Positions 15,171 to 20,111 of a stretch of 64,000 bases of DNA are shown piece after piece; the stretch's first letter is position 1, and each line of letters opens with the position of its first letter. Position numbers and translations under genes: made by a program. The notes under the pieces were generated by a model. That model was given only the letters and a program-made list of their open reading frames with translations. It was not told the DNA's origin and ran no database searches. The DNA comes from Parvibaculaceae bacterium Mf 1.05b.01 (GTDB lineage Bacteria; Pseudomonadota; Alphaproteobacteria; Parvibaculales; Parvibaculaceae), in NCBI GenBank assembly GCA_000509225.1, contig BAOK01000001.1:1364001-1428000 (forward strand), written 5' to 3'.

Positions 15171-16223
15171 TTATTCGTCCATGCGGCTGATCCATTCGCG
15201 GATCAGCGCAAGCCCTTCTTCGTGCACGAGACTCCGACCCGTTTCCGGCATCATGATGCCGGGGTCAGTTGAAGCCATCCGGAAAAGCAAAATTGACTCA
15301 TCTGGCTTGCCCGGCGCAATGTCGAACTCAAACCCGCCTGATCCGCGACCCGCGGCAATTGGGCGTTTGAAGACACCGAGCCGCGAGGCATCCTCTTCCT
15401 CCCATGTCAGAAAGAGGCCTGACGTTTTTCCCGGACCTGCGTCCGCATGACAATGGGCACAGTTCATATCGAGATAAGCCCGCGCGCGCTCGTTGAGGGA
15501 CACATGGTCTTCGTCCAGCCAGTTTGCGATGCGCGGGAGCTGTGCAGGATCATCGGGCAGTGGTGAGAGCAAACCGGCCCTCGCCCAGTGGGTCAGCTGG
15601 TTTTCCGACCCGCTTGCATAATCAAAATCGTGATTGATGTTCCGAACCTTCGGGCCGATGGGGATCAGCTCGCCCCCAGTCACATGGCAGCCTTTGCACT
15701 GGTTCACATTGGGAACCGCATATCGGATCGGAAGAACAGTGCCATCCTCCTGCACCCAATCAACGGTGAGGCGTTTGCCTGCACGTTTCAGTATGGCGTC
15801 CGTATCGTCATCGTTCCAAACATAAGGAAGTGCGACCCATCCATCTGTCTGGTGGATGAGCAATCTGGTTTCAATCAGATTGAGACCGTGCACCGCCGAC
15901 ACAGTCGCGTCGGGATAGGCGAAGGTTTTGACGAGGATTGTGCCGACGGGATAGTCCGGCAGACCCGCGCCTTGATAGGTCGCCGCCTCACCATCCGGCA
16001 GAGAGATAAACCGCATCTTCTCTGCATAATCGGTGAAGAGTGGCGTGATGAGGTCATAGGGCACTACGCCCATTGCAGGCTTCTGCGCTGTCAAATCGGT
16101 GAACAGGTCATAATCAGACAACAGTTTGGCAGGTTTCTCCGCCAATGCCGCTGTCCAGTCCACCGCTCCCGCTGACGTTATTCCCCCAACAAGCAGCGCA
16201 AGCCCTAGCAGCAGATGCTTCAC
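15171..16223 (-). CDS. SO_2930/HNE_0200-family diheme c-type cytochrome-like protein
   Basis: A 350-residue exported protein. The signal peptide (about 1-20) ends in TSAGA before VDW. Two haem-c attachment motifs are visible: CKGCH near residue 175 and CAHCH near 256, in a region with GPKVRNINHDF. The family (TIGR03806, HNE_0200/SO_2930) has no known function but repeatedly occurs beside a parallel beta-helix protein, as here, where the start overlaps the upstream beta-helix stop by four bases. A periplasmic or outer-surface electron-transfer role is inferred. A final ESILLFRMASTDPGIMMPE-type segment is typical. Confidence 0.88.
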   Translation of the reverse strand: MKHLLLGLALLVGGITSAGAVDWTAALAEKPAKLLSDYDLFTDLTAQKPAMGVVPYDLITPLFTDYAEKMRFISLPDGEAATYQGAGLPDYPVGTILVKTFAYPDATVSAVHGLNLIETRLLIHQTDGWVALPYVWNDDDTDAILKRAGKRLTVDWVQEDGTVLPIRYAVPNVNQCKGCHVTGGELIPIGPKVRNINHDFDYASGSENQLTHWARAGLLSPLPDDPAQLPRIANWLDEDHVSLNERARAYLDMNCAHCHADAGPGKTSGLFLTWEEEDASRLGVFKRPIAAGRGSGGFEFDIAPGKPDESILLFRMASTDPGIMMPETGRSLVHEEGLALIREWISRMDE

Positions 16224-17476
16224 GACGCGCTTTCCTGGCTGAGCTGAACGGCCTGCAGCTCAGCAGGTCCACCCGCATGGTCAGGCAAGTCTCTGTCGAC
16301 GCCATGCAACCAGCGTGCGGCAAACCAGAACGTCACATCTGCATTCACGAAGCTGACAGGCTCGCCGTCGGTGCTTTCGTTCTCGCCAATGTAAATGCCT
16401 TTGTTCTCGTCAACGCCAAAGAAGGTCTGCATCCAGGGTAAACGGCCATCCCAGACGATATCGGGAATGGGTGTTCCAACGATCTCGGCAATCAGGTCCC
16501 CGATTTCATTGTCCGGCGCAAAGCCGTTTCGACCAATCTTATTGGAATGCACTGAAATTCCGGCCGGGAACGGTTGGTAGAGTTCGTCTTCGGTGTCGTC
16601 GGGATAGGCGACGATCAGAATGGCTGTCGTGGCGTTGTCATCAATCTCATTGCCGAAGAGTTCCATATCCCGGTTCGCCATCACCATGATACCCGTGCCC
16701 ATAGGTGTCTGGCCCACAATGTTACCTTCAGGCGCAAAGTTCGGCGTGTCATTGGTGATGGACTTATTGTTGAACACACGAACAGAGTGGCCGCCTTGCT
16801 GTGGCAGGCCCGGCAAATCAAAGATTAAGATGCCGCCCGTATTGTGGATCGCCACATTGTCATGCACGTCTGCGTAGTAGGAATTCTCAATCTCAATACC
16901 TGCCACATTATATTCCGCGCGAGAATTACGAACGATGATGTGTTGCGACTGTCCCACATAGATGCCTGCGTCCGACGCGCCAATGGCAACACAATTGTCG
17001 ATCAGCACATGAGTGGAGGAGACAGGATAGAGACCGTAAGCGCCATTATTTTCATCCGGACCATTGGTCCATTCCACGCGGATGTCGCGAAAGGTGATTT
17101 CGTCTGAGCCGTTCGCTTTGATCGCATCGCCCTTCACGTCTTCAACCGCAAAACTTTCAAGCACGATCTTGTCTGAGGTTACCAGCAGACCCTCACCACC
17201 AGATTCCTGGCCTTTAAAGGAGAGGATGGTGGCGTCCGGCCCTTGGCCTTTCAGGGTCACCCCATCAATGTCGAGGGAGAGGCCATCGGTCAGCGCGAAG
17301 ATACCTGCGGGCAGGATGATGGTATCGCCGGGGCTCACATCGATCAGCGCTTCCTGAATGGTCTCTTGAGGATCCAGAGCCAAAGCGGCTGAATCAAGCT
17401 CCAGCACCGCGGCACTGACGCTGCCTCCCAACATCAAAAGTCCGACTACTGCAGTGCCGATGAATTTCATCTTCAT
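16220..17476 (-). CDS. Parallel beta-helix repeat protein (TIGR03805 type)
   Basis: A 418-residue exported protein. A signal peptide (about 1-22, ending SVSAA) is followed by a right-handed parallel beta-helix with many short Asn/Asp/Gly/Val-rich turns (IDNCVAIGAS, VRNSRAEYN, VHDNVAIHN, VFNNKSITN). The fold suits polysaccharide or surface-polymer binding or cleavage; no catalytic set is obvious. It is translationally coupled (four-base overlap) to the diheme cytochrome gene, the known genomic partnership of these families. The start at 17476 follows AAGGGTGG. It is divergent from a TetR gene across a perfect 21-base palindrome. Confidence 0.88.
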   Translation of the reverse strand: MKMKFIGTAVVGLLMLGGSVSAAVLELDSAALALDPQETIQEALIDVSPGDTIILPAGIFALTDGLSLDIDGVTLKGQGPDATILSFKGQESGGEGLLVTSDKIVLESFAVEDVKGDAIKANGSDEITFRDIRVEWTNGPDENNGAYGLYPVSSTHVLIDNCVAIGASDAGIYVGQSQHIIVRNSRAEYNVAGIEIENSYYADVHDNVAIHNTGGILIFDLPGLPQQGGHSVRVFNNKSITNDTPNFAPEGNIVGQTPMGTGIMVMANRDMELFGNEIDDNATTAILIVAYPDDTEDELYQPFPAGISVHSNKIGRNGFAPDNEIGDLIAEIVGTPIPDIVWDGRLPWMQTFFGVDENKGIYIGENESTDGEPVSFVNADVTFWFAARWLHGVDRDLPDHAGGPAELQAVQLSQESAS

Positions 17477-17492
17477 TTTGCCACCCTTTCAA

Positions 17493-17513
17493 AATATGAA
17501 ACTATTTCATATT
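17493..17513. promoter_or_regulatory. Perfect TetR-type palindromic operator
   Basis: AATATGAAA (17493-17501), a three-base centre CTA, then TTTCATATT (17505-17513): nine-base arms without mismatch. It lies 16 bases from the beta-helix start and 46 bases from the divergent TetR start, where it can control both genes. Confidence 0.8.
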
Positions 17514-17559
17514 ATGTCTCCTCCCTTGTCAAGAACGGTGAAAAAGCCCAAGAAACCTC

Positions 17560-18171
17560 ATGCGCAAACCGACTCAAGAGAGAGCCCGAAAACGCGTCAC
17601 TGGCATTCTGGCAGCGGCGGCGGACCTGATATCACAGGGCGGTGTTGAAGCGGTCACGACGACAGACCTGGCGCAGCAAGCAGGCGTGCCGGTTGGCTCG
17701 ATCTATCAATATTTCGAAGACGCGAATGATGTTCTGCGCACTGTCCAGGGCGAGTACGCCGCGGAGCTTGTGGCGGCCTGTCATGAGGTCCTGGACAGTT
17801 TGCCGCCGAACACAGACTGGCAGACCTCCACGCGCCTTACGATTGATACCTATTGGGAAGAGCTGTTGAAGCGGCCGATCTACGTGGCGCTTCTGCGCGA
17901 CGCAACGCGGACCCAATCATTCGCAGACTCCCTGGGCCTTGGTGGTCCGGGCGAAAGTGATATTGCCGCCCTCTTCCACCGAAGTCTGGACGTCGGGGGT
18001 GCCATGCTCCCGCCTGCGAAAGCAGACGCCGTCACCGACACGGTGCTTGGGTCGCTCTCAGCGCTTACCGACCTTGCCATGTTGATTGATGACGACACCG
18101 CGCGCGAAACCCGTCGCCAGGAAATGCTCCGCATGATCGAGCTTTATCTTGCGGATATTCTGGAGGCTTAG
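17560..18171 (+). CDS. TetR/AcrR family regulator of the beta-helix/cytochrome pair (predicted)
   Basis: A 203-residue regulator with an N-terminal TetR HTH (AVTTTDLAQQAGVPVGSIYQYF, about 31-52, ending in the classic YQYF) and a helical ligand-binding domain. It is transcribed away from the beta-helix gene across an intergenic region of about 80 bases that contains a perfect palindrome. Autoregulation and control of the beta-helix/cytochrome operon is the simplest reading. Its 3' end overlaps the convergent btaB stop by four bases. The ligand is unknown. Confidence 0.9.
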   Translation: MRKPTQERARKRVTGILAAAADLISQGGVEAVTTTDLAQQAGVPVGSIYQYFEDANDVLRTVQGEYAAELVAACHEVLDSLPPNTDWQTSTRLTIDTYWEELLKRPIYVALLRDATRTQSFADSLGLGGPGESDIAALFHRSLDVGGAMLPPAKADAVTDTVLGSLSALTDLAMLIDDDTARETRRQEMLRMIELYLADILEA

Positions 18172-18818
18172 GTCGCGACCTGACTGCGAAGATCCCGAGG
18201 AACTTCCGCGAGCCTTGCGTAATCCCCATGGAGTGGCTTCAGCTCAGCGCTGCCTAACTCTTCCAAAGCCGGGCCCAGTTCTGCGCGCGGCGCCACATGG
18301 AAGAGGGTCAACCACCAAGTCAGTAAACGCCGGAACCAGCGCGGCAAGCGTTTCTGTTCGCCAAAATCGACAATGACCAAGCGCCCGCCCTCTGCGGTTA
18401 CCGCATAGCCTCGCGCCAGGGCTCCCTCCCAGTCCGGGATCATTGAGAGAGAATAGGAAAAGAAGACACGGTCAAATGCGGCGCGATTGAACAGCGCGGC
18501 AGCGTCGAAATCAGCAGCATCGGCTTGCGCGACCTTGACCCGATCTTCGAGCCCCGCCCGTTTGATCTCTGTGTGGGCGGTCATGAGCATTTCAGCCGAA
18601 ATGTCGAGGCCGTAGAAAAGCGCATGGGGGTAGCGCTTTGCCGCCTTGATAAGATTGCGGCCCGTGCCGCAACCAATCTCCAGAACAATGCCCCCTTCCG
18701 GCGGGGCGAGTTCGGCAATGAGACGGTCGCGGCCGAGTAGGTAATATTTCCGCGTAAAGTCATAGAAGTGACGCTGGTGGCGGTAGATGCTGTCCATCAG
18801 GGCGCTGGTCGCGTTCAT
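18168..18818 (-). CDS. btaB: BtaB-type S-adenosylmethionine methyltransferase
   Basis: A 216-residue class I methyltransferase. The SAM-binding glycine-rich loop LEIGCGTGRNL lies near residue 46, an acidic residue follows the next strand (GLDISAEM), and FFSYSLSMIPDW forms motif IV. BtaB adds three methyl groups to diacylglyceryl-homoserine to give the betaine lipid DGTS. The call rests mainly on context: it lies three bases after the btaA-like gene and is read with it. DGTS replaces phospholipids under phosphate limitation in several alphaproteobacteria. Other small methyltransferases look similar, so the name depends on the neighbour. Confidence 0.85.
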   Translation of the reverse strand: MNATSALMDSIYRHQRHFYDFTRKYYLLGRDRLIAELAPPEGGIVLEIGCGTGRNLIKAAKRYPHALFYGLDISAEMLMTAHTEIKRAGLEDRVKVAQADAADFDAAALFNRAAFDRVFFSYSLSMIPDWEGALARGYAVTAEGGRLVIVDFGEQKRLPRWFRRLLTWWLTLFHVAPRAELGPALEELGSAELKPLHGDYARLAEVPRDLRSQVAT

Positions 18819-18821
18819 GAG

Positions 18822-20111
18822 CTATCCCTCAAACGTATAGAGGTGCACACCACCATAAATGGCGGAGCGGTCGCGGGCGGTATAGTCGAGGCTCTCTTCT
18901 CGCTTGTAAGCCCAGCGGCTCAGCGTCTCGTCAGCCACTCTCCCCGGCAGAATTGTGTCACTGCCTGCAGTGCGGAAGACGACACGGGCACCTGGCTCCG
19001 CTGTACGGGTAATCTCGCTCCAGAGCTCATTCAGTTGTGCGTCGGTCATCCAGTCCTGCGCGTCGAGCAGAACATAAGCATCAAATGCTTCTTCCGGTTC
19101 GTCCGCTAGCAACTCCGTGAAAGAGCGGTGCCTGACTTTCACACGGTCTGCCCGGTCGCGCATGTCAGCGAAATGAGCTGCCTGCAGATAAGGCGGCAAG
19201 GGCCCGGCAGGTCCGGATGAGGTGTTGGCTTCCATCGGGGCATAGCCGCGGCCAAAGGCCTGCCACGCGAAATAGTTTTCGCTCATGGGGAAGTCGCAGA
19301 CGAGTTTTTCGAGCCGGCCTTTGAGCACGGCAGCCATATCACCACCACCGTCGGCTGCCAGCGCTTCATATTGCGCGGGCGGAATACCGAGACCGTAGAG
19401 CGACATTTTTTTGGACGTCACCCATTTCACGACGCGCTTGTCGAAAAGTGGTGCCAGCACGCGGTCGAAGTAGGAGCGCTGTTCGGCAAGGTTCCGGGTC
19501 TTGGTCAGCTCGCTCGGGTCGACGCCCAGACGGCGCGCCATAAAGTGCGCGGCCCCGATGAAGTAGCCCAGAAGCCCGTGATGATAGAGGTCGCGGGAAA
19601 AGAGCGTATAGCGGCGCTGGCCCATCAGGTCGCGCCCCTCCCAGTAGGAGCGGCTTTCCTCATCGAGCTTTGGCTGTAGAAAACGTTTATAGGCTGTGAT
19701 GTTGGACTTGCGGTCCGCATCGCCAAAGAAACGGAAGAAGCTCTCATAATTGGGGAGCTCACGAGCGGCGGCAAGCTTAAGGCGGGTTAGCGCAAGGTGC
19801 GCGCGATTGAGGTCCACCGCGACAATCTCACGGGGGTTGGCTGTGAGGTAGGAGAGCACGTTGCAGCCGCCAGACGCGATGGTGAGGACGCGGGAGTTTG
19901 GCGTCAATGCCAGCGCTTCCATGTCCACTTTCGGGTCTTCCCAGATTTGCGGATAGACGAGGCCCTTGAAGACGAAGGTGAAAAAACGCTCTGTGAAGCC
20001 GGCCCGGCTTGCCGCCTTGTTCTGATGCACGGCAGACTTCAGACGCTTGGTCGTGTCTTTGAGGGCAGCGGAGGAAAGATTGGTCTTTGCGGGCTCTGTT
20101 TTCGCGAGCAT
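18822..20111 (-). CDS. btaA: BtaA: SAM:diacylglycerol 3-amino-3-carboxypropyltransferase
   Basis: A 429-residue DUF3419-family protein. It has a SAM-binding-like segment (RVLTIASGGCNVLSYL near 83-98), DLNRAHLALTRLKLAA, and the family's WEGRDL and C-terminal DAQDWMTDAQLNELW features. BtaA moves the 3-amino-3-carboxypropyl group of SAM onto diacylglycerol, the first step of betaine-lipid synthesis; BtaB then trimethylates the product. The two genes form an operon with a three-base gap. The start at 20111 has AAGG about 11 bases upstream. A single Pho-box-like half site lies about 100 bases upstream on the same strand. Confidence 0.9.
   Translation of the reverse strand: MLAKTEPAKTNLSSAALKDTTKRLKSAVHQNKAASRAGFTERFFTFVFKGLVYPQIWEDPKVDMEALALTPNSRVLTIASGGCNVLSYLTANPREIVAVDLNRAHLALTRLKLAAARELPNYESFFRFFGDADRKSNITAYKRFLQPKLDEESRSYWEGRDLMGQRRYTLFSRDLYHHGLLGYFIGAAHFMARRLGVDPSELTKTRNLAEQRSYFDRVLAPLFDKRVVKWVTSKKMSLYGLGIPPAQYEALAADGGGDMAAVLKGRLEKLVCDFPMSENYFAWQAFGRGYAPMEANTSSGPAGPLPPYLQAAHFADMRDRADRVKVRHRSFTELLADEPEEAFDAYVLLDAQDWMTDAQLNELWSEITRTAEPGARVVFRTAGSDTILPGRVADETLSRWAYKREESLDYTARDRSAIYGGVHLYTFEG

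Follow-up and report, generated by a model that had tools for sequence, protein, structure and literature searches.

A putative P460-like diheme cytochrome paired with a beta-helix protein beside a divergent TetR gene and its proposed operator

The 64,000-nucleotide stretch of DNA analyzed here, referred to below as the window, comes from Parvibaculaceae bacterium Mf 1.05b.01 (contig BAOK01000001.1, positions 1,364,001 to 1,428,000) and contains a pair of genes coding for a cytochrome and a parallel beta-helix protein. Both lie on the minus strand, where the beta-helix gene (16220 to 17476; 418 amino acids; family TIGR03805) precedes the gene for a diheme cytochrome c of the SO2930 family (15171 to 16223; 350 amino acids; GTG start; family TIGR03806). 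The beta-helix stop codon and the cytochrome start codon share the four bases 16220 to 16223, an overlap through which the two genes are likely coupled in translation. Divergent from the pair, on the plus strand, is a gene for a TetR-family regulator of 203 amino acids (17560 to 18171). Between them lies a perfect palindrome, AATATGAAA-CTA-TTTCATATT (17493 to 17513), an exact 9-3-9 repeat placed 16 bases ahead of the start codon of the beta-helix gene; we propose it to be the TetR operator.

An original prediction, made from the sequence alone, had described the main features of this locus, and its assignments have held up. The list of open reading frames (ORFs) bears out the overlap and the divergent regulator, the palindrome is exact, and both members of the pair score well above the curated cut-offs of their families, with 405.8 bits against TIGR03806 (cut-off, 313.3) for the cytochrome and 402.3 bits against TIGR03805 (cut-off, 141.5) for its partner, whose model moreover matches beta-helix structures. 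The TetR ORF reaches 45.1 bits against TetR_N (PF00440; cut-off, 24). Two CxxCH motifs, read from the sequence, make the cytochrome a diheme protein: CKGCH at residues 176 to 180 (15684 to 15698) and CAHCH at residues 255 to 259 (15447 to 15461), both on the minus strand. The N termini of both pair proteins look signal-like by eye, which suggests that both are exported. The source genome (G000) is alphaproteobacterial and 3.82 Mb in size, and its beta-helix protein is 95% identical to the counterpart in the Rhodobiaceae metagenome-assembled genome FE80, the nearest named relative found.

The pair recurs in nature, as had also been predicted. Loci for comparison were drawn from overlapping samples, in which the TIGR03806 cut-off was exceeded in 9 of 40 genomes of the family, 15 of 386 of the class, and 44 of 397 of the phylum, the order-level sample being the same 40 genomes as that of the family; 13 further loci were taken by their beta-helix protein from named genomes. 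Among the 70 loci fetched by the cytochrome (L017 to L026 and L085 to L144), the beta-helix precedes the cytochrome or is fused to it in 66, including L025, where it is broken into pieces. The exceptions are L026, a short fragment, and L142 to L144, which fall below the cytochrome family cut-off. All 13 loci fetched by the beta-helix have the cytochrome downstream, and the gene order and close spacing of the window are those of its relatives. In L099, L101, L103, and L138 to L141, a single open frame of 885 to 1075 residues encodes both proteins. Because the two are so regularly adjacent and sometimes fused, they are suggested to form one complex.

Where a TetR gene accompanies the pair, so does the operator. 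A TetR gene stands divergent to the beta-helix gene in 19 of 79 pair loci, a set that includes the window, was taken from 83 large loci, and leaves out L027 (same genome as L020) as well as L026 and L142 to L144 (without a beta-helix match). The form TGAAW-N3-WTTCA was looked for in the 450 bases that precede the beta-helix gene; it is there in 17 of the 19 TetR-bearing loci and in none of the 60 without this TetR, and the remainder of the same loci holds three such sites in 1.01 Mb. The original prediction had named a lack of conservation near orthologous pairs as one outcome that would refute it, and these counts speak in its favor. A Fisher test of operator against TetR presence gives 2e-15, a value that is not corrected for kinship and overstates independence, because the cytochrome tree needs only four changes of the TetR label and is compatible with a single origin. 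In that tree, the TetR-bearing cytochromes fall into four separate supported clades; 10 of the 19 TetR-bearing loci, counting the window, come from the window's own family, the most densely sampled one. Several alphaproteobacterial lineages have both the divergent TetR and some variant of the operator, and the motif appears to drift among loci as an operator would, from AATATGAAATAGTTTCATATT in the window to AAAAGTGAAACTATTTCATTTTT in L021, L023, and L024 and AAAAGTGAAACAGTTTCATTTTT in L029.

The operator is also rare elsewhere. With up to three mismatches allowed, neither the rest of the window nor 100 dinucleotide shuffles contained a further match to the 9-3-9 palindrome; the 7-3-7 core TATGAAA-N3-TTTCATA has one exact copy in the whole 3.82-Mb genome, at the pair, and two more places when one mismatch is allowed. 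A strict pattern, ANRTGAAWNNNWTTCAYNT, was searched for in the 16 TetR-bearing pair genomes and 4 others. It occurs once, at the pair only, in 8 of the 16 (G000, G004, G006, G014, G022, G037, G039, and G563), at two sites in G077, and at three each in G637 and G723, one of them at the pair. The strict pattern was not found in four same-family genomes without a cytochrome match, and a backward control pattern matched one place in all 20 genomes. Since half of the TetR-bearing genomes searched have no strict site apart from the one at the pair, a dedicated local repressor fits, and the TetR protein looks dedicated to the pair; as only 19 of 79 pair loci have it, this control is lineage-specific and no constant part of the pair. 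We regard TetR control of the pair as very likely, with binding to the palindrome and induction by a small ligand predicted from what is typical of the family. A sigma-70-like promoter match, TTCAAA-16-TATTAT (17488 to 17515, plus strand; a consensus match only), overlaps the palindrome and faces the TetR gene; shuffled sequences average 0.2 such matches. A TTGACA at 17528 to 17533 on the minus strand is visible by eye and was not reported by the promoter scan. In G637 and G723, two species of one genus (L187 and L193, positions ~1501 to 1519), an acetyltransferase-like gene, of the GNAT kind by eye, follows a second operator-like site at a distance of 14 to 15 bases, and a third such site lies between LysR-like and P450-like genes, again by eye.

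Other clades seem to wire the pair to a different regulator. Several gammaproteobacterial pairs that lack TetR have a second palindrome, AATTGGTAC-N4-GTACCAATT, upstream of the beta-helix gene, and when other palindromes were sought in the TetR-lacking loci, this TTGGTAC type alone stood out. It is present in all seven Microbulbifer loci with at most two mismatches and, with one to five mismatches, in L100, L102, L108, L110, L111, L121, and L125, so that the set comprises L033 to L039 and these loci, with zero to five mismatches to the 22-base consensus. Across L085 to L144 together, seven places with at most four mismatches were found in 754,678 bases, of which six can be these pairs. With one mismatch allowed, TTGGTAC-N4-GTWCCAA has its sole site at the pair in five of six genomes of family f189 and is absent in the sixth, a genome-wide uniqueness that says little because the backward control pattern matches up to three times per genome and is about as frequent in many genomes.

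A better lead to the function of the pair than the operator alone, in our view, is the P460-like N-terminal part of the cytochrome, which the original prediction had not described. Profile and model comparison divides the protein into a P460-like beta domain with heme 1 (residues ~29 to 199), at whose C-terminal end the CKGCH motif lies, and a C-terminal cytochrome c domain with heme 2 that makes up the rest. In an alignment of profiles with hhalign, 76 rows of the N-terminal domain matched 34 rows of P460 with a probability of 88.7, an E value of 2.5e-6, and a score of 42.9. Controls stayed well below this, with a maximum of 19.8 in 300 column shuffles, 13.1 for the reversed profile, 13.5 for the beta-helix alignment, and 19.5 for the TetR alignment; masking CxxCH left a score of 32.2. 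The alignment sets FPxGTxLVK against FPxGTxLVK and the GW of the family against the GW/GDW of P460, and a relaxed alignment also sets CxxCH against CxxCH. Structural comparison points the same way, though more weakly. An AlphaFold model from 13 sequences, with block-mean predicted local distance difference test (pLDDT) values of 85 to 93 at residues 21 to 60 and 71 to 100, was used in a VIA re-alignment of 999 chains from a Foldseek ranking, which placed P460 first (9hrk, Z 5.9 over 109 residues at 4.3 Å) and second (6hiu, Z 5.8). P460 structures make up seven of the best nine rows (6e0y, 4.6; 6e17, 4.6; 6e0x, 4.5; 6e0z, 4.5; 6w6n, 4.4), all aligned within residues 17 to 215. Methyltransferase-, START-, or FBPase-like N-terminal folds, in rows at Z 3.4 to 4.5, were considered and dropped. 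In sequence searches, phmmer against PDB sequences gave no match for the cytochrome or the beta-helix protein, and a cytochrome profile gave just NapB (E 0.26) and cytochrome c-552 (E 1.4). Weak matches to Pfam Cytochrome_P460 (PF16694) come from 8 of the 13 alignment members, the best at E 0.073. Because the window cytochrome stays below the PF16694 cut-off, we do not call it a cytochrome P460 but describe it as functioning in the manner of the P460 superfamily, of which it is probably a distant branch. Kinship of the N-terminal domain with P460 is probable in our estimation, and the P460-like domain is supported but not proved.

Compared with known members (PF16694; Nitrosomonas europaea 2je3, Methylococcus capsulatus 6hiu, and Nitrosomonas AL212 6amg), the window cytochrome is alike in the weak fold match at residues 29 to 199, in FPxGTxLVK with its lysine in register, in the GW motif, and in the CxxCH that ends the domain. 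It differs in its second heme domain, its beta-helix partner, and its score below the Pfam cut-off. The window genome also encodes a regular protein of the Cytochrome_P460 family, with the stretch FPDGAKIVK (L148; G000:C1:650941-651351). In another genome (L154; G065:C1:3636945-3637226), a Cytochrome_P460 domain that scores 28.7 bits, just above the cut-off, and reads PDGAILIK lies in a 1049-amino-acid frame with several CxxCH motifs, an example by which P460 domains do occur joined to further heme domains.

Candidate residues of a P460-type site are invariant. In an alignment of 85 cytochrome rows, Lys99, in the motif YPVGTILVK (codon at 15927 to 15929, minus strand), is lysine in 84 of 84 covering rows, the single gap being the second short segment of L144. 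Glu118 (codon at 15870 to 15872, minus strand), Thr119, Trp136, and the CxxCH of heme 1 are likewise conserved in 84 of 84 rows, and Arg120 is conserved in 83 of 84. Met325, found in all 81 non-gap rows, is a candidate sixth ligand of heme 2. By eye, the PVGTILVK of the window puts Lys99 in PxGxxxxK register with the crosslinking lysine of P460; M. capsulatus P460 reads PDGAILVK, and its lysine, counted by eye from Cys140, Cys143, and His144, is Lys78. According to the parts of a review consulted here, Lys78 is the residue that crosslinks the heme, and hydroxylamine-oxidizing P460s combine this crosslink with a distal carboxylate, Asp102 or Glu96 (PMC11928373). Glu118, on the strand after Lys99, is a candidate for such a carboxylate, with Arg120 as an alternative. 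Cytochromes c'-beta (6hih, 7s5o, and 7ead) share the motif and probably the P460-superfamily fold with the window cytochrome and differ from it in having Phe or Met where it has Lys; in M. capsulatus c'-beta, the position is Phe61, as the F61V entry reads VLVV and the F32V entry reads VLVF. By analogy with P460, Lys99 may be crosslinked to the porphyrin, and the protein may oxidize hydroxylamine.

The partner protein is modeled better than the cytochrome, with a mean pLDDT of 79.0 and a predicted template modeling score of 0.84. Its best structural matches are the AlgE6 and AlgE4 epimerase modules (Z 33.8 to 34.0 over ~305 residues), and it also matches the lyase RbmB (~31) and NosD (29.0). 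The model has the right-handed beta-helix of the mannuronan C-5 epimerase A-modules AlgE4 and AlgE6 (2pyg and 5lw3). AlgE-type epimerases carry the catalytic stretch YG-x-DPH, in place of which the window family reads YGxYPV in 76 of 76 covering rows, and for this reason an epimerase of the AlgE kind was rejected. Asp169, Glu195, Glu197, Asn190, Asn207, and Asn212 are present in 77 of 77 rows, and this invariant acidic cluster may bind a ligand or a metal. NosD, the periplasmic beta-helix subunit of the NosDFY copper system (7o0y and 7osf), resembles the window protein in structure and through PF05048 (38.6 bits; cut-off, 23.6). Membership in the NosD family TIGR04247 was rejected, with 35.1 bits versus a cut-off of 300. 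The beta-helix profile found one alginate lyase among PDB sequences (E 0.001).

Taking these findings together, we lean toward a reading in which the pair forms a P460-type oxidoreductase of the periplasm that is repressed by TetR and combines an electron-transfer heme with a beta-helix partner. TetR on the palindrome would shut its own promoter and the promoter of the exported pair, and ligand binding would release it. The induced pair would be a two-protein periplasmic redox complex, probably lipid-anchored in some lineages. The N-terminal beta-sheet domain of the cytochrome would hold heme 1, Lys99 would be positioned for a crosslink to the porphyrin, and the next strand would carry Glu118 or Arg120; heme 1 would oxidize a small molecule, and heme 2 would pass the electrons to the respiratory chain. 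The beta-helix, an epimerase-type fold without the catalytic DPH, would bind or present the substrate or scaffold the complex. By analogy with P460, the enzyme would most likely oxidize a small nitrogen compound, hydroxylamine for example, or else some other small molecule bound at an open heme site. More tentatively, and with somewhat less than even confidence, we propose that TIGR03806 is an unrecognized branch of the P460 superfamily in which a lysine-crosslinked catalytic heme is wired to its own electron-transfer heme and complexed with a pseudo-epimerase beta-helix. Such a branch would occur in alpha- and gammaproteobacteria beyond the nitrifiers and methanotrophs from which the characterized P460s come. 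Its regulators would differ by clade: TetR in some of the alphaproteobacteria and another one, acting at TTGGTAC-N4-GTWCCAA, in some of the gammaproteobacteria.

Several observations weigh against a TetR-switched P460-type oxidoreductase. Model confidence is low at residues 164 to 181, around heme 1, and at 253 to 333. The best VIA Z of 5.9 lies below 8, the level that VIA itself treats as meaningful, rows 3 to 9 (Z 4.4 to 4.6) tie with unrelated chains, and among the 50 Foldseek matches listed for the cytochrome model there was no P460 and none under E 0.3. One motif, FPxGTxLVK, carries much of the hhalign signal: with it masked, the score is down to 24.0 and the probability is 8.2, and, aligned to P460 over ten columns, the C-terminal domain of the same cytochrome scores 21.3; a 13-row profile gave a probability of 34.7 over 32 columns. 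The window cytochrome is not listed for PF16694 up to E 10. The alignment register to Asp102/Glu96 does not fix whether Glu118 or Arg120 is the equivalent, if either is. On the side of regulation, TetR is absent from 60 of 79 pair loci, and the operator form is missing from 2 of the 19 TetR-bearing ones, L017, which by eye has a one-mismatch operator, TGAATATCCTTCA, and L025, a broken copy. The strict pattern was found in none of G003, G020, G038, G196, and G565 (5 of 16 TetR-bearing genomes), although the looser form stands at the pair in G003, G196, and G565. We know of no P460 with a beta-helix partner, and a TetR regulator would, to our knowledge, be unusual for a hydroxylamine enzyme. Finally, the characterized P460s covered in the consulted parts of the review have one heme per subunit, with no second heme domain described there (PMC11928373).

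One alternative is a cytochrome that is a plain electron carrier or a gas-binding protein, with the P460/c'-beta fold, no crosslink, no turnover, and a structural Lys99. The fold match is weak and the register of the carboxylate is unsettled; moreover, a gas-binding role has been proposed for c'-beta proteins of the superfamily, and one lysine-crosslinked P460 without the distal carboxylate does not oxidize hydroxylamine, as stated in the parts of the review consulted (PMC11928373). In contrast to the three c'-beta proteins in a table of that review, which have Phe or Met at the crosslink position (PMC11928373), however, the family studied here has Lys in 84 of 84 rows plus the invariant Glu118, and we judge this explanation unlikely.

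Less probable still is that the beta-helix is the enzyme, acting on a poly- or oligosaccharide, that the cytochrome merely accepts electrons, and that TetR senses a sugar-derived product. The model does match epimerase modules at Z 33 to 34 and the polysaccharide lyase RbmB at ~31, and the invariant Asp169, Glu195, and Glu197 (77 of 77 rows) could form an active site, but YGxYPV stands in all 76 rows where AlgE-type enzymes have YG-x-DPH, lyases and epimerases are not known to transfer electrons, and no recurring third gene beside the pair points to a polysaccharide. An explanation that concerns only the switch, by which the palindrome serves TetR autoregulation alone or the main TetR targets lie elsewhere, so that the pair is not a target, could draw on the lone sigma-70-like match in the gap, which overlaps the palindrome and is oriented toward the TetR gene, and on the extra sites in G637 and G723, of which one precedes the acetyltransferase-like gene in both. 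We consider it very improbable: TetR and operator stand beside the pair in 17 of 19 TetR-bearing loci, while the genes beyond TetR differ by lineage, the operator of the window lies 16 bases ahead of the beta-helix gene, and in 8 of 16 TetR-bearing genomes the strict pattern has no site other than the one at the pair.

In the published literature on the TIGR03805/TIGR03806 pair and SO2930, no function was found, in agreement with the original prediction. SO_2930 appears among the outer-membrane or extracellular c-type cytochromes of Shewanella oneidensis in the consulted part of one study (PMC4837345). Among the papers listed in searches on the pair and on P460 with diheme, cytochrome c domain, or beta-helix, no title or abstract opening tied TIGR03806 to P460. 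Control by a TetR through a conserved operator is in itself nothing unusual, and the novelty here is the combination; compared with the pair as found in 60 of 79 loci, the window differs by its divergent TetR with a conserved operator. If our reading is true, a P460-type heme site would give the pair a testable chemistry, and the known crosslinked P460 hemes would be joined by one in a diheme protein that has a beta-helix partner. An independent handle is TetR, whose strict operator is single in 8 of the 16 TetR-bearing genomes searched, as the ligand that releases it is probably close to the substrate. Both the chemistry and the inducer of the pair are now open to testing.

Neighboring genes were also compared, by clustering ORFs in 80 loci of 30 lineages over a range that starts 7 kb before the cytochrome and ends 5 kb after it. 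Among the clusters found in at least three lineages, TetR was the lone adjacent partner judged conserved besides the pair (7 of 30 lineages). A TonB-dependent-receptor-like family (by eye; 12 members) likewise occurs in 7 of 30 lineages and was judged unremarkable, and the remaining neighbor clusters, such as DapB, occur in three to four lineages each. Two clusters of nine and six lineages that lie over the pair on the opposite strand look like shadow ORFs and were set aside. A Pfam scan of ten neighbors revealed nothing relatable to the pair, and with no widely recurring adjacent gene found beyond the pair and TetR, the neighborhood was dropped as a guide to function. Two unusual architectures were seen among the relatives: L099 and L101 have a second, separate copy of the cytochrome beside the fusion, and L142, L143, and L144 have open frames of 1204 to 2371 amino acids with a divergent cytochrome domain and no recognized beta-helix of TIGR03805. 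In the window itself, a methyltransferase gene adjoins a DUF3419 gene (18168 to 20111, minus strand), and these two resemble the BtaB/BtaA set for betaine lipid synthesis.

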